From: an uncultured Acidobacteriaceae bacterium
GTDB lineage: Bacteria > Acidobacteriota > Terriglobia > Terriglobales > Acidobacteriaceae
Length of the DNA stretch: 55,782 nt
Direction of reading: 5' to 3'
Assembly: GCA_903904755.1 (NCBI GenBank)
Contig: CAIVDV010000050.1
Span: forward strand, 1 to 55,782
Every line of letters starts with the position of its first letter. Position 1 is the first letter of the stretch. Positions 4,360 to 51,606 of the stretch are shown in pieces. The notes below the pieces were generated by a model. The model searched no databases and was not told where the DNA came from. It saw only the letters and a list, made by a program, of their open reading frames with translations. The translations under genes and the position numbers were made by a program.

Positions 4360-4773
4360 ATGGCAGTCGAGACGAACGAATTTCGGGCCGAAGCCAGGTT
4401 CCAGCGCGTGTCCCCGCAAAAGGCGCGCCTGGTGCTGGACCTGATCAAGGGCAGCGGGGTTCAGGAGGCGCTGGAGACGGTGGCCTTTACCAAGAAGCGG
4501 ATTGCTCCGGTGATCCACAAGGTGCTGACATCGGCACTGGACAACGCGAAGTATCTTTCTGACGAGCGCGGTCTGGATCTGGATGTTGACAATCTGTACG
4601 TCAAGACGGCGATCGCCAATGACGGTCCCCGCATGAAGCGGATACGCCCTGCCCCGATGGGCCGTGCCTTCCGTTATCAGCGCCGGCTTACCCACATCAT
4701 CGTAACGGTGGCCGAGCGGCCTTTGGTGGAAGAGACCAAGGGCAAGAAGACCAAGTCCAAGACGGCCGCGTAG
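4360..4773 (+). CDS. rplV: 50S ribosomal protein L22
   Basis: L22 lines the nascent peptide tunnel with its beta hairpin. [16 protein letters not shown] and the hairpin [20 protein letters not shown] with THIIVTV are seen. Length is 137 residues, longer than the common 110-115. The extra is a lysine-rich C-terminal tail ([13 protein letters not shown]) after the conserved core. The GAGGAAGG site lies a few bases before the ATG. Macrolide resistance positions lie in the hairpin, but no phenotype can be inferred. Confidence 0.97.
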
Positions 4774-4798
4774 GCCAAGAGAGTTTGAGAGGCAACGT

Positions 4799-5467
4799 AT
4801 GGGACAGAAAGTCCATCCTTATGGATTCCGGCTGGGAGTAAACAAGCCCTGGCGCTCGCGCTGGTTCGCAACCCGCGATTACGCGAAGCTGCTGGTGGAA
4901 GACGTGAAGCTCAAGGAAGAGCTCAAGGACAAGCTGAAGGCCGCAGGCGTCAGCTCGGTTGAGATTGAGCGTCCGGGCAACAAGCTGCGTTTCATCATCC
5001 GCACCGCGCGTCCGGGCATCATCATTGGCCGCAAGGGTTCGGAGATTGAGAAGCTGAAGGCTGAGCTCTCCAAGCGCACCAACCGGGATGTTTTCATCGA
5101 CATTCTGGAAGTGAACAAGCCGGAGCTTGACGCACAGCTGGTTTCGGAGAACATCGCGCTGCAGCTGGAAAAGCGCGTTGGCTTCCGGCGGGCGATGCGC
5201 AAGAGCGTGGACTCGGCCCTGCGTTTCGGTTGCAAGGGGATCAAGGTGCGTGTTTCGGGCCGTTTGAACGGCAACGAAATCGCCCGCTCGGAGTGGTATC
5301 TCCAGGGTCGCCTGCCGCTGCACACGCTGCGCGCCGATATCGATTACGGTTTCTCGGAAGCGCATACCACTTACGGGATCATCGGTGTGAAGACCTGGAT
5401 CTACCGCGGCGACATTTACGAGCAGAAGCGTCGCCAGCCGAGCCAGATTGGTACGTCGGTATTCTAG
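4799..5467 (+). CDS. rpsC: 30S ribosomal protein S3
   Basis: S3 sits at the mRNA entry channel. The 222 residues include the start [20 protein letters not shown], the KH domain with the GXXG loop ([13 protein letters not shown], about residues 78-90), and the C-terminal domain with [15 protein letters not shown] and [14 protein letters not shown]. Start is by ATG after GAGAGGCAACGT, 25 nt past rplV. The 112-nt spacer to rplP has overlapping GC arms: ACCGCC at 5468-5473, GGGCGG near 5483 and CCGCCC near 5495. Confidence 0.98.
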
Positions 5468-44954: not shown

Positions 44955-47273
44955 ATGGCATTCTTTGGCAGCGCGCGGAGCCGCACCGTCTTCCTGCTTG
45001 CTGCGGGGGCGTTTGTGGTTGGGGCGGCCATTATTGCGCTGAACGCGTTTAACCCCAGGAATATCCCCCAACTGACGCCGCAGACCTCAGACGAAATTCT
45101 TGTTTTCAGCGGATTGTCGATCGTCGTCTTTCTGCTGCTGCTGCTGTTGCTGGTACTGCTGATTCGGAATTTGCTGAAGCTGTTTGTGGACCAGCGGAGC
45201 CGGGCATTGGGTTCGAGGCTGAGGACGCGCCTGGTGCTGGGGGCGGCGCTGATTTCGCTGGCTCCTGCCGCGTTCATGTTTCTGTACAGTTTTGCGCTGA
45301 TGAACCGGAGTGTGGACCGGTGGTTTTCGCAGCCGACGGCGGAGCTGCGATCGGATTCGGACCGGGTAGTGTCAGAGCTGGCGCACTATGCGGCGACGAA
45401 TGCGCGGCTGGAGGCGGAAGCGATTGCCGCTTCGTCGGCGGTGGACCGGGACGAGGCGACGGCGGACAGTGTGTTGCGGTCGCGGAGCATTACGCTGGAG
45501 GGCGGCTATGTGGCGGTATATGACGGGAACCGTCATGGGATTCTGGGTTATCAGTTGCCGCCGGAGAGTTCGCCGCGGAGCCTGCTGCTGCGGCTGACGG
45601 ATGGCAAGCCGATTGAGTCTGCGCTGCACGGGCCACTGTTTGCCGACATTCTGGCGGTGGCGGTGCGCAGCGACGAGCCGGTGCTGGTAATCAACCAGCG
45701 GGATTATGTTGAGGGTCAGGCGATGACGCCGGCGGGACGGATTGTGGTGGTGGGGCTGCCGATGCCGCAGGGGCTGAGCGAGACGGCGAGCCGGATTCGC
45801 GCGGGGACGATTGAGTACTGGACGCTGTTCCGGAGCCGGAACCGGATTCGCGAGACCTACTTTTTCATGCTTCTGCTGATTACGGCGCTGGTGTTTTTCT
45901 CGAGTATGTGGCTGGCGTTATTCCTGTCGAAGCAGATTACGCGACCGGTGGAAGCGCTGGCGGATGCGATGGACGAGATTGCCGAGGGGAAGCTGGACAA
46001 GCGGGTTGCGATTGAGTCGAGCGGGGAGATGGCGGAGCTGATGCGCGCCTTTAACCACATGGCTGGGGACCTGCAGCAGAGCCGCGAGGTGGCGGAGAGT
46101 GCGCGGGAGCAACTGGCGGCGGCGAACCTGGCGCTGGAGAGCCGGCGGCGCGAGCTGGAGACGATTCTGGAGACGATTCCGAGCGGTGTGGTGACGCTGG
46201 ATGCATTTGGCTCGATTCTGCTGGCGAACCAGGCCTTTGCACAGATGCTGGGCGAGACGGCGGTGGCCAACCTGATTGGCCGGCAGATCGTTTCGGTATT
46301 TGCGCCCGACTGCGCGGAGGATTTGGGCCGGGTGATTCGGCGGAGCCATCGGATGGGGACGGCGACGCTGGAGATGCAGACGCAGTTGCGGGGCAGGAAT
46401 CTGCATATGACGGTGACGAGCGCGCGGCTTGCGCTGGGCGGGGTGCTGGCGGCGCGCGGGCTGGGGTTTGGCAGCGTGCTGGTGGTGGAAGACACGAGCG
46501 AATTGCTGCGGGCGCAGCGTCAGCTTGCGTGGAAGGAAGTGGCTCAGCGGGTGGCGCATGAGATCAAGAATCCGCTGACGCCGATTGCGCTTTCGGCAGA
46601 GCGAATCCGGCGGCACCTGGACCGCACGACGGAGGAGTCGCCGGCGGTGATTCGGAAGTGCAGCGAGGTGATATTGAGCTGTGTGACGACGCTGCGGACG
46701 CTGGTGGACCAGTTTTCGGCACTGGCGCAGTTCCCGGCTTCGCGACCGAACCCGGCGGATGTGAACGCGATTGTGGAGAATGCGCTGACGCTGTTCCACG
46801 ACCGGCTGGATGACATCAAGCTGCGCAAGACGCTGGACCCGGAGTTGCCAGAGGTGATGGCGGATGGGCAGGCGCTGCAACGGGCGCTGGCGAACCTGAT
46901 TGACAATGCCGCCGAGGCGATGCAGGGGAGCCTGCTGCGGGTGCTGACGGTGGAGACGCGGCTGACGGAAGATGCCGCATCGGTGGAGATTGAGATTGCC
47001 GACACCGGGCACGGACTGACGGACGAGATTCGCGAGAGGCTTTTTTTGCCGTTCTACTCGACCAAGCAGCGGGGCACGGGTCTGGGGCTTTCGATTGCGG
47101 CGAAGATTATCCAGGATCACCAGGGCTCGATTCGGGCCGAGTCCAACACGCCGAAGGGCGCGAGATTTCTTGTCACGCTGCCGGTTCTCGATACACTTCC
47201 AGTTGAGAGCGCTGCAGAAGCACAGGTTGCCGGAAAAGCGGCCGAAACCCCAGAGCAGGTATCCAAGGTTTAG
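44955..47273 (+). CDS. Sensor histidine kinase, NtrY-like
   Basis: This is an inner-membrane kinase of 772 residues that phosphorylates the regulator encoded next to it. Membrane segments lie at about 11-32, 50-70, 95-117 and 301-322, with an external region between the last two. A HAMP linker (about 322-375, SKQITRPVEALADAMDEIAE) and a PAS domain (about 410-510) follow. The HisKA box VAQRVAHEIKNPLTPIALSA carries His535. The ATPase has NLIDNAAEAM, IADTGHGLTDEIRERL and GTGLGLSIAAKIIQDHQG. The layout is that of NtrY. The signal is unknown; nitrogen sensing is only implied by homology. Confidence 0.92.
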   Translation: MAFFGSARSRTVFLLAAGAFVVGAAIIALNAFNPRNIPQLTPQTSDEILVFSGLSIVVFLLLLLLLVLLIRNLLKLFVDQRSRALGSRLRTRLVLGAALISLAPAAFMFLYSFALMNRSVDRWFSQPTAELRSDSDRVVSELAHYAATNARLEAEAIAASSAVDRDEATADSVLRSRSITLEGGYVAVYDGNRHGILGYQLPPESSPRSLLLRLTDGKPIESALHGPLFADILAVAVRSDEPVLVINQRDYVEGQAMTPAGRIVVVGLPMPQGLSETASRIRAGTIEYWTLFRSRNRIRETYFFMLLLITALVFFSSMWLALFLSKQITRPVEALADAMDEIAEGKLDKRVAIESSGEMAELMRAFNHMAGDLQQSREVAESAREQLAAANLALESRRRELETILETIPSGVVTLDAFGSILLANQAFAQMLGETAVANLIGRQIVSVFAPDCAEDLGRVIRRSHRMGTATLEMQTQLRGRNLHMTVTSARLALGGVLAARGLGFGSVLVVEDTSELLRAQRQLAWKEVAQRVAHEIKNPLTPIALSAERIRRHLDRTTEESPAVIRKCSEVILSCVTTLRTLVDQFSALAQFPASRPNPADVNAIVENALTLFHDRLDDIKLRKTLDPELPEVMADGQALQRALANLIDNAAEAMQGSLLRVLTVETRLTEDAASVEIEIADTGHGLTDEIRERLFLPFYSTKQRGTGLGLSIAAKIIQDHQGSIRAESNTPKGARFLVTLPVLDTLPVESAAEAQVAGKAAETPEQVSKV

Positions 47274-47275
47274 AT

Positions 47276-48676
47276 ATGAATCATGTATTGATTGTTGATG
47301 ATGAGGCGGAGATCCGGGCGTCGCTTGAGGATATTTTGGGCGAGGAAGGGTACTCTGCGGCTTCGGCCGCGACGGCAGCGGAGGCGATGACGCTGCTGCA
47401 GGACGCGCCGTATGACGTGGTGCTGCTGGACATTTGGCTGCCGGACCGGGATGGGCTGGATGTGCTGGCGGATATCCATGCGTTTTCGGCGGAGTCGCGC
47501 CCGGAGGTGATCATCATTTCCGGTCACGGCACGATTGAGACGGCGGTGCGGGCGACGAAGCTGGGGGCGTATGACTTCCTGGAGAAGCCACTTTCGCTGG
47601 AAAAGACGCTGATTGTGCTGAAGAATGCGGCCGAGGCGCGACGGTTGCGCCGGCATAATCTGGAGTTTCAGCGTCAGTTCAGTGTACAGAGTTCGCTGAC
47701 GGGCGACAGCGTGCCGGTGAAGGCGCTGCGGCAGCAGATTCGGCTGATGGCACCGACGAATGGGCGGGTGCTGATTTATGGCGAGTCGGGAACGGGAAAA
47801 GAGCTGATTGCGCGGGCGATCCACGCAGAGAGTTTGCGGAAGGACCGGGTGTTTGTGGAGCTGAACTGCGCGGCGATTCCCGAGGCGCATATTGAGGCGG
47901 AGCTGTTTGGATACAGGAACGGGGCGCATCCTGGTGCGCATTTGGGTGCGCAACTGGGAGTGTCGGGGGCGGCGCAGAATATTCCGGCGGAGAAGCGGGG
48001 GACGCTGGAGCGGGCTGACGGGGGAACTCTGTTTCTGGACGAAGTGGGCGACATGAGCCTGAAGACGCAGGCCAAGGTGCTGAGCGCGCTGGACGAGCAG
48101 TTGTTTACGCCGATTGGGGGGGCGCAGCCGATTCGGGTGGATGTGCGGATTATTGCGGCGACGAACAAGAATCTGGAAGAGGAGATTCAGAAGGGGAACT
48201 TCCGCGAGGACCTGTTTTACCGGCTGAATGTGGTGCCGTTTTCGGTGCCTCCGCTGCGGGAGCGGAAGCAGGATATTCCGCCGCTGGTGCGTGAGTTTCT
48301 GCTGGAGTTTGGGCGGCAGTACGGTCGGCCGCGCGTGGAGATGAGCGAGGAAGCGCTGAGTGTGCTGGGTGAGCATAGCTGGCCGGGGAATGTGCGGGAG
48401 CTGCGGAACCTGGTGGAGCGGGTGCTGATTTTGAATCCGCGGACGCTGCGGATTGAGCGGAAGCATTTGCCGCCCTTGACGCAGCGGGCAACGGCGCGTC
48501 CGGCGGATGACTTTGCGAGTCTGCAGCAGGCGCGGGATGCATATGAGCGGGATTACATCCTGAAGAAGCTGGAAGAGGCGCGGAACAATGTGAGCCGTGC
48601 GGCGGAGCTGCTGGGGCTGGAGCGGAGCCATTTGTACCGGAAGATGAAGGCGCTGGGGATAGCGGTGCGGGAGTGA
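47276..48676 (+). CDS. NtrX-like AAA+ response regulator with altered GAFTGA loop
   Basis: This is a 466-residue regulator with a receiver (VLIVDDEAEIRASLEDILGE; Asp52 in VVLLDIWLPDRDGL), an AAA+ domain (Walker A IYGESGTGKELIARAIHAE, Walker B GGTLFLDEVGDMSLKTQAK, arginine region RLNVVPFSVPPLRERKQDIP) and a Fis-type helix-turn-helix (NNVSRAAELLGLERSHLYRK). The sigma-54-contacting GAFTGA motif is replaced by GAHPGAHLGAQLG (residues 216-228), encoded by three 12-bp repeats, and the loop is about 14 residues longer than usual. It may therefore not activate sigma-54. It starts 2 nt after the kinase gene. Confidence 0.93.
   Translation: MNHVLIVDDEAEIRASLEDILGEEGYSAASAATAAEAMTLLQDAPYDVVLLDIWLPDRDGLDVLADIHAFSAESRPEVIIISGHGTIETAVRATKLGAYDFLEKPLSLEKTLIVLKNAAEARRLRRHNLEFQRQFSVQSSLTGDSVPVKALRQQIRLMAPTNGRVLIYGESGTGKELIARAIHAESLRKDRVFVELNCAAIPEAHIEAELFGYRNGAHPGAHLGAQLGVSGAAQNIPAEKRGTLERADGGTLFLDEVGDMSLKTQAKVLSALDEQLFTPIGGAQPIRVDVRIIAATNKNLEEEIQKGNFREDLFYRLNVVPFSVPPLRERKQDIPPLVREFLLEFGRQYGRPRVEMSEEALSVLGEHSWPGNVRELRNLVERVLILNPRTLRIERKHLPPLTQRATARPADDFASLQQARDAYERDYILKKLEEARNNVSRAAELLGLERSHLYRKMKALGIAVRE
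47921..47956 (+). repeat. 12-bp tandem repeat inside the regulator's GAFTGA loop
   Basis: Three imperfect copies in frame: GGGGCGCATCCT (47921-47932), GGTGCGCATTTG (47933-47944) and GGTGCGCAACTG (47945-47956). They encode GAHP, GAHL and GAQL. The copies fall exactly at the place of the GAFTGA motif of sigma-54 activators. Confidence 0.85.
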
Positions 48677-48694: not shown

Positions 48695-48730
48695 AAAAGG
48701 GCGACCATGGCGGTCGCCCTTTCTGTTTTG
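48695..48730. terminator. Bidirectional terminator between the regulator and the DUF4914-like gene
   Basis: AAAGGGCGACC (48696-48706) and GGTCGCCCTTT (48712-48722) form an 11-bp perfect stem with a 5-nt loop. The plus strand continues CTGTTTTG, and the minus strand continues TGCTG after AAAA/TTTT at 48695-48698. It stands between convergent genes and can serve both. Confidence 0.8.
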
Positions 48731-48742
48731 AATCGCCCTGGG

Positions 48743-50713
48743 TTATTCTTCCCGGAACATGGCGTGGGGGATGAGCTTCCAGTAGTCTTCCTGGTGTGCG
48801 CCGTCGAGGCAGGCTTCGATGATTTTGCGGCCGAGGGGGTCGAGGTCGGGGACGAGGAACTGCTTGAGTTCGCGGGCGAAGAACTCCTGCCACTTGCGAG
48901 CGCCCTCGTCGTAGACATCCTGGCCGCCCTGGATTTGCTCTTCGACTTTGAGGAAGACGCGGGGGATGAGGGAGCCTTCAATGCGAATCTGCTTGGGGAT
49001 GTAGCCGAGCAGGGGCAGGCGTGCTTCGTCGAGCTGCTCGCGGCCGAAGCGGGCAGAGCCGCGGCGGGCGAGGTATTCGCGGGCGATCCACTCGGCCATG
49101 AAGCCGACTTTCCATGCGCCGATGTGCTGGTTTGGGATGAGGACGTGGCGGGTTTCCGGGGTGTCGACGATCTGGTTGAGGAGCAGGTTGGCCTGGTCGA
49201 CGCGGCGGCCGGTAGCAAATGCCCAGTAGCTGCCGACGCCTTCGGACTGCATCTCCTTGGACTTGCTGGACTGGATGCTGGGGTTGGCGTGTCCGCGGGG
49301 GGCGACGAGACGCCAGAGCCAGGCGAGGGAGGGGGGCAGGATGTGGAGCATGGCGAGGATGCCGTAGAGCTGGCTTTCGCGATGAGTGGCGGGGCAGCGG
49401 ACGCCGAAGCTGCGGACGTCGACCTGACGGGGGCCGGTGAGGACGTCTTCGACCATGTTGCGGGGGAGGACGACGCGGGGGTTGGGGCAGGGCTTGCCGG
49501 GGGCGTCTTCGATGTGTTCCCAGGTGAGGCATGTGCCGCCGGGGACGATGTAGTGGTTGAGGAAGATGAGGGGCTGGGGGGGCTCAATGCAGGCGCGCTC
49601 GAGGTTGGGCGCGGTGCCGTAGGCCTTGATGTGGTCGACGCGGACGAACCAGCCGGCCTCGGCATCGGCGAGGGTGAGGCGGCCGCTGCGGCCCTGCAGG
49701 CTGGGGTGGGCGCAGGCCATGTCGTCGGCGATGGGCAGGAGGTGGCAGGCTTCAGGGAGGTTGAGGGTGCGTTCCTCGTTGGTGAGGACGTTGCGGCCGA
49801 GGAGGAGGCGGCCATCTTCCATGCGGTGGATGTGCTCGGTCATTTCGCTTTTGCCACCGCCGCTGGCGCCCTCGTGCATGATGACGGTGCGGTTCTCGTA
49901 GGGGGTGACGACGGCGACGGCGGCGCAGTGGTTGGTGGTCCAGCCCTCGCGCTCACCGATGTCGAGGAGCATGGAGTAGACGCCTTTTTTGGCACTGGGG
50001 CCGGGGTAGAGGTTGTAGGCGAAGATTTCCTGGTGAGTCTCCTGGCGGTCGTGGACGACGACCTGCTTGCCGGAGAAGTGGGTGTGGCGGAAGGGTGGGG
50101 CGACGAAGAGGACGCCGCCGGAGAGGCGGAAGTTGTCGGGGGTCTGGCTCTTGGGGATCATTCCCTGGAGGTCAGCGAGGGCTGCGGCGAAGAAGGCAGC
50201 CGCGCGGGGGACGATGGCGAGAGCGCCGTAGCCGAGCTTGTCTGGGCCGGCGTAGAAGGGGACGACGACGAGTTCCTGGGTTTTGAGCCAGTCGAGGGTG
50301 GCCTGGCGGGTTTGGGCAAAGGGAACGCCGAAGCGCTCCTGGTAGGTGGGCTTGTCGGTGGGGAGGTTGTCGCCGATGACCATGGCGTCGGGGTCGCGGC
50401 GGCGCATGGAGGGGTCAGGGAAGTTGATGGCGAGGCCGTTGCGGGCCTTGGTGATGACGGCTTCGGTGATGCGGCCGTTGCCGGGAACCTGGAAGATGGA
50501 TTCGTAGACGCCGTGGTCGTCGCGATTGCCGAGACGCCAGTCGGTGGTGCCGCTGGTGCGGCCGAGGGCCCAGTCGAGCAGGTCGGCGCGGCTCTCAGGC
50601 ACCTGGATAGACGGGGCACCGCTGAGGACTTCGATGACATGCGGGGGAAGGTTCAGGCGGCTCCACTCGGTTTGGAAGTTGAGCAGGGCTGTTTCAGCAA
50701 TCAACTGGGTCAT
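48743..50713 (-). CDS. DUF4914-like protein with PEPCK-like P-loop
   Basis: The function is unknown. The 656 residues from ATG 50713 (MTQLIAETALLNFQTEWSRL) contain MHEGASGGGKSEMTEHIHRM (about 290-310), a kinase-type phosphate loop like that of ATP-dependent phosphoenolpyruvate carboxykinase. Conserved-looking segments GYGALAIVPRAAAFFAAALA, IFLNHYIVPGGTCLTWEHI and IPNQHIGAWKVGFMAEWIAR also occur. I believe this is the DUF4914 family; that is from memory. AGGAAA lies 7 nt before the ATG. An open frame upstream to 50830 is not needed. It is single and convergent with the two-component genes. Confidence 0.75.
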   Translation of the reverse strand: MTQLIAETALLNFQTEWSRLNLPPHVIEVLSGAPSIQVPESRADLLDWALGRTSGTTDWRLGNRDDHGVYESIFQVPGNGRITEAVITKARNGLAINFPDPSMRRRDPDAMVIGDNLPTDKPTYQERFGVPFAQTRQATLDWLKTQELVVVPFYAGPDKLGYGALAIVPRAAAFFAAALADLQGMIPKSQTPDNFRLSGGVLFVAPPFRHTHFSGKQVVVHDRQETHQEIFAYNLYPGPSAKKGVYSMLLDIGEREGWTTNHCAAVAVVTPYENRTVIMHEGASGGGKSEMTEHIHRMEDGRLLLGRNVLTNEERTLNLPEACHLLPIADDMACAHPSLQGRSGRLTLADAEAGWFVRVDHIKAYGTAPNLERACIEPPQPLIFLNHYIVPGGTCLTWEHIEDAPGKPCPNPRVVLPRNMVEDVLTGPRQVDVRSFGVRCPATHRESQLYGILAMLHILPPSLAWLWRLVAPRGHANPSIQSSKSKEMQSEGVGSYWAFATGRRVDQANLLLNQIVDTPETRHVLIPNQHIGAWKVGFMAEWIAREYLARRGSARFGREQLDEARLPLLGYIPKQIRIEGSLIPRVFLKVEEQIQGGQDVYDEGARKWQEFFARELKQFLVPDLDPLGRKIIEACLDGAHQEDYWKLIPHAMFREE

Positions 50714-50923
50714 ACGCGCGTTTCCTGTTCTTTCCGGCCGGGGGAAATGGGAACTTCCCATCGGCCAGGTTTCGCGCAGGGACGCTTTGAGAAAGAGTCC
50801 CCACAGAACTCTTATTCCATTTGGCCCCATAAATGGCAGTGATGGGGGTCACGGGGAGGGGGAGAGGTTCAGAATGCGGGATTCGCGTCATTGATCTGGA
50901 AGCTGTCATGGTTTATCCATGTT

Positions 50924-50944
50924 TGGCATTGCAGTACAATGACA
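50924..50944 (+). promoter_or_regulatory. -10 box and inverted repeat before the RHH/PIN operon
   Basis: TACAAT (50935-50940) ends 7 nt before the ATG at 50948, implying a leaderless transcript. TGGCATTG (50924-50931) and CAATGACA (50937-50944) form an inverted repeat matching at 7 of 8 positions around a 5-nt centre. It overlaps the -10 box, a fitting operator for a ribbon-helix-helix antitoxin. The -35 (TTTATC, 50912-50917) is poor. Confidence 0.5.
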
Positions 50945-50947
50945 AGT

Positions 50948-51199
50948 ATGCGAATTGCGAAGACTGTTTCAATCACACTTCCTCCTGACCTTTTGCTGAA
51001 GGCGCAGGTTTGCGCGGAGCGGGAACACCGCACGATGAGCGAGTTGTTTCGCGAAGCACTGCGTCAGTACATGGTTCAGGATCGGGACTGGCAGTCGCTG
51101 CTGGGGCGTACGCGGGCTCACGGGCAGGCGATTGGCGTGATGAGTGAAGCCGATGTTGAGCGGATGTCCGACGAGTTTCGAGCTGCTCGAAGCCGATGA
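50948..51199 (+). CDS. Ribbon-helix-helix antitoxin
   Basis: This 83-residue protein starts MRIAKTVSITLPPDLLLKAQ, an RHH beta strand and helix, followed by EREHRTMSELFREALRQYMV, the second helix of a CopG/Arc-type DNA-binding unit. The polar C-terminal part (MSEADVERMSDEFRAARSR) is likely to bind the toxin. It overlaps the PIN gene by ATGA (51196-51199), so translation is coupled. The start at 50948 is preferred to the in-frame ATG at 50939 because the latter overlaps the -10 box. Confidence 0.87.
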   Translation: MRIAKTVSITLPPDLLLKAQVCAEREHRTMSELFREALRQYMVQDRDWQSLLGRTRAHGQAIGVMSEADVERMSDEFRAARSR

Positions 51200-51606
51200 A
51201 GGTGGTTGCCGACACCAATATTTATATTTCTGCGCTGCTGTTCGGCGGGGTTCCGGGGACGTTTCTGGATCTGGCCCTGCTGCGGGCGTTCCAACTGGTG
51301 GCGTCGGAGGCGATTCTGGAGGAGCTCGAAGAGAAGTTGAAGGAGAAGTTCCGGGTGCAGGCGGAAGATATTGAAGTTTCGCTGAGGCGAATCCGGGAGG
51401 CGGCGGTCGTCGTCAAGCCTGCTTTCTCCTTGCAGGTGATTGCCGATGATCCAGATGACGACCGGATTCTGGAGTGTGCGGTGGCCGCTCAAGCAGACTG
51501 CATTGTGAGCGGAGACAGACATATTCTGCGGCTTGGCAACTACGCGGGCATGGATGTTCTTACGGTGAGGCAGTTCCTGGATCGTTTGCAGCTACCTGGT
51601 ATGTAG
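51196..51606 (+). CDS. PIN-domain toxin (PIN_3-type putative ribonuclease)
   Basis: The 136 residues begin MKVVADTNIYISALLFGGVP, with the first catalytic Asp in VADTNIYISAL. A conserved Glu lies in SEAILEELEEKLKEKF, and DDPDDDRILECAVAAQADCI with SGDRHILRLGNYAGMDVLT supplies further acidic residues. This matches the PIN sub-group often named putative toxin-antitoxin system toxin component, PIN family. It differs from the VapC-like protein at 23197, so the two loci are not recent duplicates. Its stop abuts the end of the convergent secreted protein gene with no gap. Confidence 0.88.
   Translation: MKVVADTNIYISALLFGGVPGTFLDLALLRAFQLVASEAILEELEEKLKEKFRVQAEDIEVSLRRIREAAVVVKPAFSLQVIADDPDDDRILECAVAAQADCIVSGDRHILRLGNYAGMDVLTVRQFLDRLQLPGM

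Follow-up and report, generated by a model that had tools for sequence, protein, structure and literature searches.

The DNA analysed here, referred to as the window, is a whole contig of 55,782 bases from an acidobacterial genome; Acidicapsa dinghuensis falls within the same genus group as this genome. On its forward strand, a sensor kinase gene is followed by the gene of an NtrX-like regulator, and the features relevant to this study are listed below.

44955..47273 (+): NtrY-like sensor histidine kinase with HAMP, PAS, HisKA and HATPase domains (ORF listing and Pfam)
47276..48676 (+): NtrX-like response regulator of 466 aa with receiver, sigma-54-type AAA+ domain and Fis HTH (ORF listing and Pfam)
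47429..47431 (+): Asp52, by its position in the receiver presumably the phospho-acceptor
47780..47803 (+): Walker A, GESGTGKE, residues 169-176
47912..47998 (+): expanded L1 loop, residues 213-241 (YRNGAHP...AEKR), in which GAHPGA occupies the GAFTGA place of intact relatives
47921..47956 (+): three 12-bp near-repeats, residues 216-227, GAHPGAHLGAQL (sequence letters, TRF and unit-match count)
48029..48052 (+): Walker B, LFLDEVGD, residues 252-259
48200..48223 (+): FREDLFYR, residues 309-316, which we take to be the arginine-finger segment
48545..48652 (+): Fis-type HTH (HTH_8), residues 424-459 (Pfam)
48696..48722 (+): terminator-like hairpin of 11 pairs, 3' of ntrX

All three domains of the regulator (PF00072, PF00158 and PF02954) score above their Pfam cut-offs, and its top NCBIfam model among 116 families is NtrX (NF051870) with 460.9 bits. 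Because this value lies below the cut-off of 600, the protein is named NtrX-like here; an NtrX-like identity had been proposed in a first-pass annotation and is supported by the domains and the best model. The stop codon of the kinase gene lies 2 bases upstream of the ntrX start. The label NtrY-like rests on the position and the domains of the kinase, and no NtrY-specific model was matched in the NCBIfam and Pfam searches. Of the 71 family loci with at least 2.5 kb upstream, 67 have a relative of the kinase (E<1e-50) that ends at ntrX, and two of the remaining four (L055 and L093) have no long ORF upstream of ntrX. Across the phylum and the basal part of the family, NtrX-like genes have an NtrY-like kinase directly upstream in 11 of 15 loci, and no such ORF was found in the other four.

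Downstream, a gene for a DUF4914 protein (48743-50830, reverse strand) is convergent with ntrX, and the terminator-like hairpin lies in between. Further on (50891-51606, forward strand), a ribbon-helix-helix gene with a PIN_3-domain gene directly after it resembles a toxin-antitoxin pair.

The L1 loop in the window protein and its relatives

The AAA+ domain of the window protein passes the Pfam model 'Sigma-54 interaction domain', and by domain content the protein reads as a sigma-54 activator. The rule for the contact motif is given in an excerpt of a bEBP survey (PMC3162934): F at position 3 of GAFTGA tolerates only Y, and T at position 4 only S or E, with D as a putative further residue. 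The hexamer of the window protein, GAHPGA, fails this rule, with F3 exchanged for H and T4 for P, and retains G1, A2, G5 and A6; the sigma-54 contact motif is gone, as had been stated. The repeat sits between ELFG and Walker B, where GAFTGA is placed by an alignment to the chain 4l4u, titled 'transcriptional regulator (NtrC family)'. The letters and this alignment confirm the earlier observation of three 12-bp near-repeats in the place of GAFTGA. From LFG to the residue preceding ADGGT, the loop comprises 37 residues vs 22 in intact relatives. The expansion noted before is thus real, and its size is 15 extra residues instead of about 14.

We compared orthologues from the genus, the core family, its basal rows, other families of the class and other classes. 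The core set consists of a clade with support 100 plus L159 and holds 107 distinct genes, since L136 and L173 represent one gene. F or Y at position 3 together with T, S, E or D at position 4 is kept in none of the 107 distinct core-family orthologues (genus 0/13, others 0/94), in one of 11 basal family rows, in 15 of 20 rows from other families of the class and in all 31 parsed rows of other classes. When unparsed sequences are included, F/Y3 with T4 is found in 39 of 40 other-class sequences, which stem from 36 genomes, four of them with two copies. The family rows behind these counts are mostly the best-matching ones, and further stretches were picked by hand from listings, so that the sample is non-random. 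Apart from this, NtrX-like copies with GAFTNA (L193, L203) and GAVPHA (L205) occur in other acidobacterial classes; the genomes of L193 (G365) and L205 (G442) each carry a second NtrX-like copy with an intact motif (L194 and L206).

The steps of the loss can be followed among the rows. In the 11 basal family rows, which show GAFPGA, GSFPGA, GSFAGA and similar hexamers, position 3 is F in ten, and position 4 is P in six, A in four and S in one. The row with S is L164, whose hexamer GAFSGA may still be functional. The loop typical of the core family is free of repeats, comprises 22 residues and carries GAxPGG: 70 of the 95 non-genus core rows (one gene counted twice) have a 22-residue loop, and none of these satisfies the rule. 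Loop length ranges from 18 to 37 residues in the core family and from 26 to 37 in the genus, where it differs among species. All 13 genus rows have P in place of T4, as do 76 of the 95 other core rows. Six of the 13 genus rows carry F or Y at position 3, which may have been retained or regained. In other families of the class, Thr4 is lost in five of 20 rows; NtrX has therefore lost Thr4 repeatedly within the class.

In a tree built without the loop, the genus forms one clade (SH-aLRT 99), and the core family has support 100 with L159 as its sister row (88); this quickly computed tree has long outgroup branches, and the outgroup does not fall on one side of a branch. The comparison indicates that T4 and then F3 disappeared at the family base or close to it. 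Drift of the loop tip, expansions and deletions came later, and in the window genus small insertions lengthened the loop. The repeat is therefore a late event in a loop whose contact residues were already gone, because the core family already lacks the motif in repeat-free loops of canonical length. One record in the tree, L134, is titled Rhodanobacteraceae, and its NtrX groups with Granulicella-titled rows; it is probably a mislabelled genome bin.

The 12-bp repeat

The three units at 47921-47956, GGGGCGCATCCT GGTGCGCATTTG GGTGCGCAACTG, encode GAHP, GAHL and GAQL. Units 1 and 2 match at 8/12 positions, 2 and 3 at 10/12, and 1 and 3 at 8/12, which sums to 26/36. The chance level of such 12-bp triplets was judged from the window and from codon shuffling of ntrX. 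A sum of 26/36 is reached by four clusters within the 55.8 kb of the window, the ntrX repeat being one of them, and 3.3% of 1000 codon-shuffled ntrX copies hold an equally good in-frame site (P=0.033). TRF places two overlapping period-12 rows at the repeat (score 38 each), among 54 window rows scoring at least 30. The repeat is real, yet on its own it is merely somewhat above chance.

Comparison with relatives adds to this. In the window loop alone, the match at lag 12 is 10/12, with P values of 0.006 and 0.009 in two runs that tried eight and six lags, respectively. For the seven representatives of the window subclade (nine tree rows, support 92), lag 12 gives a Fisher P of 7e-5, which is too small a value since the seven sequences are related and not independent; lag 15 gives 0.052 and the remaining lags at least 0.39. 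Neither the remaining four genus loops (P 0.97) nor 15 loops of at least 26 residues elsewhere in the family (P 0.19) show the lag-12 signal, and among the loop groups compared the 12-bp periodicity was found only in the window subclade. Of the small insertions in the genus loops, none is as well preserved as the 12-bp units of the window. A repeat origin, as put forward in the first-pass annotation, is partly supported: tandem duplication is plausible in the window subclade, and the signal does not extend to the other genus loops or the long loops of the family.

The same annotation held that the repeat had replaced GAFTGA and that its copy number could tune activity between strains. The repeat itself and the lag-12 signal of the window subclade are in line with this view, as is the observation that in 11 of the 13 genus loops the surplus over 22 residues is divisible by four (lengths of 26, 30 or 34), a count made post hoc on rows that share ancestry. 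We nevertheless regard it as highly improbable. The motif is already lost across the core family, where most non-genus rows have repeat-free loops of canonical length, and the genus loops outside the subclade lack the signal. Moreover, the units are merely 8-10/12 alike, which is too diverged for usual slippage-type switching. Orthologues with a non-repeat loop had been named as the case that speaks against the proposal; they exist for the motif loss, and the insert itself is peculiar to the window lineage. In our collections, which hold one genome per species, the species of the genus differ in loop sequence and length and not in clean unit counts. We lean moderately towards the repeat being neutral filler from a local tandem duplication, and most likely the repeat itself has no dedicated function.

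Four-residue length steps (22+4n) were considered as a rule and rejected. The window loop (37) and L004 (33) are exceptions within the genus, and beyond it the steps are unsupported, with lengths of 18, 20, 21, 22, 25-28 and 30; we keep them merely as a hint.

The conserved ATPase and the proposed mode of action

Outside the loop, the protein is strongly conserved. Without exception, the 107 distinct core-family genes encode the Walker A Lys (K175), the Walker B Asp-Glu (D255, E256), both finger arginines (R310, R316), the sensor II Arg and Asp52. Within the genus (78 pairs), identity is 0.38 in the loop, with gaps counted as differences; elsewhere in the AAA+ domain it is 0.90, and the poorest 27-column stretch there still reaches 0.69. 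Relative to the window protein, genus rows show 0-2 indel columns outside the loop, apart from the missing ends of the partial genes L036 and L037. The pattern looks like selection on motor and switch with one surface released.

This bears on the possibility that the AAA+ domain is a relic and the protein a simple DNA-binding repressor, switched by phosphorylation and independent of ATP. Excerpts of PMC10274813 describe some GAFTGA-less bEBPs that work at sigma-70 promoters without ATP hydrolysis, which would agree with such a role, and the same excerpts predict that ATP binding and hydrolysis contribute in Caulobacter NtrC. A relic would drift, and the invariant residues listed above argue against drift. 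We consider a relic unlikely. Given the intact ATPase residues, ATP binding and perhaps hydrolysis should therefore still matter for assembly.

Alternatively, the altered loop might make a rewired contact with sigma-54 or a different sigma factor. G1, A2, G5 and A6 persist in the window hexamer, the flanks are conserved (R241 in at least 90% and G242 in all of 34 rows), and the exchange of T4 for P is recurrent, Pro being the preferred deviation at position 4 among about 110 deviant bEBPs in the excerpted part of the survey (PMC3162934). The same part describes such replacements as inactive, and, unlike a binding surface, the tip shows unconstrained variation in sequence and length within the core family. 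A new contact of this kind appears quite unlikely. An AlphaFold2 prediction on 34 family sequences reached a mean pLDDT of 62.8, with the AAA+ region mostly below 50, and was too poor to show the loop.

The first-pass annotation had called for a search for rpoN, and all 15 genus genomes, including that of the window, contain the gene. Matches to the activator domain number 12 in the window genome, of which eight are strong. A 22-residue loop with GAFT[GS][AS] is found in seven of these strong matches, the sole exception being the window NtrX-like protein; within this genome, the loss is therefore specific to the NtrX-like protein. A scan for sigma-54 promoters gave 22 matches at no more than two mismatches vs 29 expected, none of them in the gap before ntrY. 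As a separate observation, a paralogous activator of the genus (L044-L053, L051 being the copy of the window genome, also L221) has GAFTSA or GSFTSA in 10 of 10 loci, with 22-residue loops.

Canonical sigma-54 activation has very likely been lost in the window protein. Our explanation as a whole, which we hold to be likely, is an NtrX-like regulator of one acidobacterial family whose L1 loop lacks the canonical sigma-54 contact. The NtrY-like kinase would phosphorylate Asp52, which would lead to assembly of the AAA+ domain with ATP and to DNA binding via the Fis HTH, and the regulator would then directly activate or repress sigma-70-type promoters. Direct action at non-sigma-54 promoters is fairly likely on these grounds; action without sigma-54, which had been proposed earlier, is supported as the likeliest consequence. 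Several points count against this explanation. Basal L164 has GAFSGA, the window hexamer keeps four of its residues and the NF051870 cut-off is missed. In addition, according to an excerpt of PMC12421884, Caulobacter NtrC lacking GAFTGA promoted some sigma-54 genes in DNA-binding mutants, so that effects on such genes may persist.

By analogy, the best reading likens the window protein to the sigma-54-uncoupled NtrX of some Alphaproteobacteria. The nearest solved chain, 5m7n ('nitrogen assimilation regulatory protein'), is the best PDB sequence match (E 4.3e-98) and has a shortened loop; we take it to be Brucella NtrX. It shares the receiver, AAA+ and Fis HTH domains and the lack of GAFTGA with the window protein, whereas the window protein has an expanded loop and comes from a lineage in which T4 was the first residue to go. 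GAFTGA is likewise missing from NtrX of Caulobacter (PMC10274813) and from NtrC of Caulobacter and Rhodobacter capsulatus; these belong to another phylum, and the NtrC cases show L1 deletions. GAFTGA-less NtrC was reported at sigma-70 promoters, and excerpts of PMC10274813 read Caulobacter NtrC in this way. TyrR, DhaR, HupR and VpsR are further bEBP homologues with a broken GAFTGA, which differ in subfamily and signal; the first three are sigma-70 dependent according to the excerpted survey (PMC3162934). NtrX-like proteins of other Acidobacteriota (e.g., L148, L150, L179, L182) are 56-60% identical to the window protein and of the same length class, but retain GAFTGA or GSFTGA in a 22-residue loop.

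For Alphaproteobacteria, NtrX and NtrC proteins without GAFTGA are already described in the literature. For Acidobacteria, our literature search found no report of a GAFTGA-less NtrX, and the list of defective motifs in the 2011 survey may include acidobacterial names. As far as the search reaches, the family-wide graded loss with an intact ATPase is new, and the repeat itself is minor. Predicted sigma-54 regulons of these soil acidobacteria should handle NtrX separately, because none of the 107 core-family genes satisfies the contact rule despite the intact ATPase. A tentative and not very probable extension sees in the family and its neighbours a graded natural series, from intact GAFTGA via GAFPGA/GSFAGA and GAxPGG to free expansion with the ATPase untouched, in which a sigma-54 motor has been turned to other use. 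The series offers ready intermediates for asking what role an AAA+ motor has once its sigma-54 contact is gone. If this NtrX still hydrolyses ATP at sigma-70 promoters, the series would display the stepwise repurposing of such a motor, and 12-bp tandem duplication would be one source of new loop sequence.

Loci compared

The family search yielded a match at E<=0.001 in 200 of 200 genomes. The best match was 1e-130 or better in 184, and may be a paralogue or a fragment in the remaining 16. The named relatives are the best 80 of 157. Of the 15 genus genomes, 13 gave a loop, two of these from the partial genes; G183 had no orthologue match and G206 a C-terminal piece only. The loop parser lost ten loci, namely L120 of the family and nine of other classes (L184, L194, L203, L205, L206, L208, L211, L212 and L213). 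By eye, L120 reads GAVPAG, seven of the nine read GAFTGA or GSFTGA, and L203 and L205 show the hexamers given above. For the tree, the first 12 other-class loci were considered, of which 11 entered, and rows that differed at most within the loop were collapsed into one. The ntrX of L082 was considered as an interrupted gene on account of a long match, and this was rejected in view of an intact ORF of 451 aa. At 4390-4997 of the same locus, 3' of ntrX, a CopG/ParD-like and a ParE-like ORF follow one another, as judged by eye.
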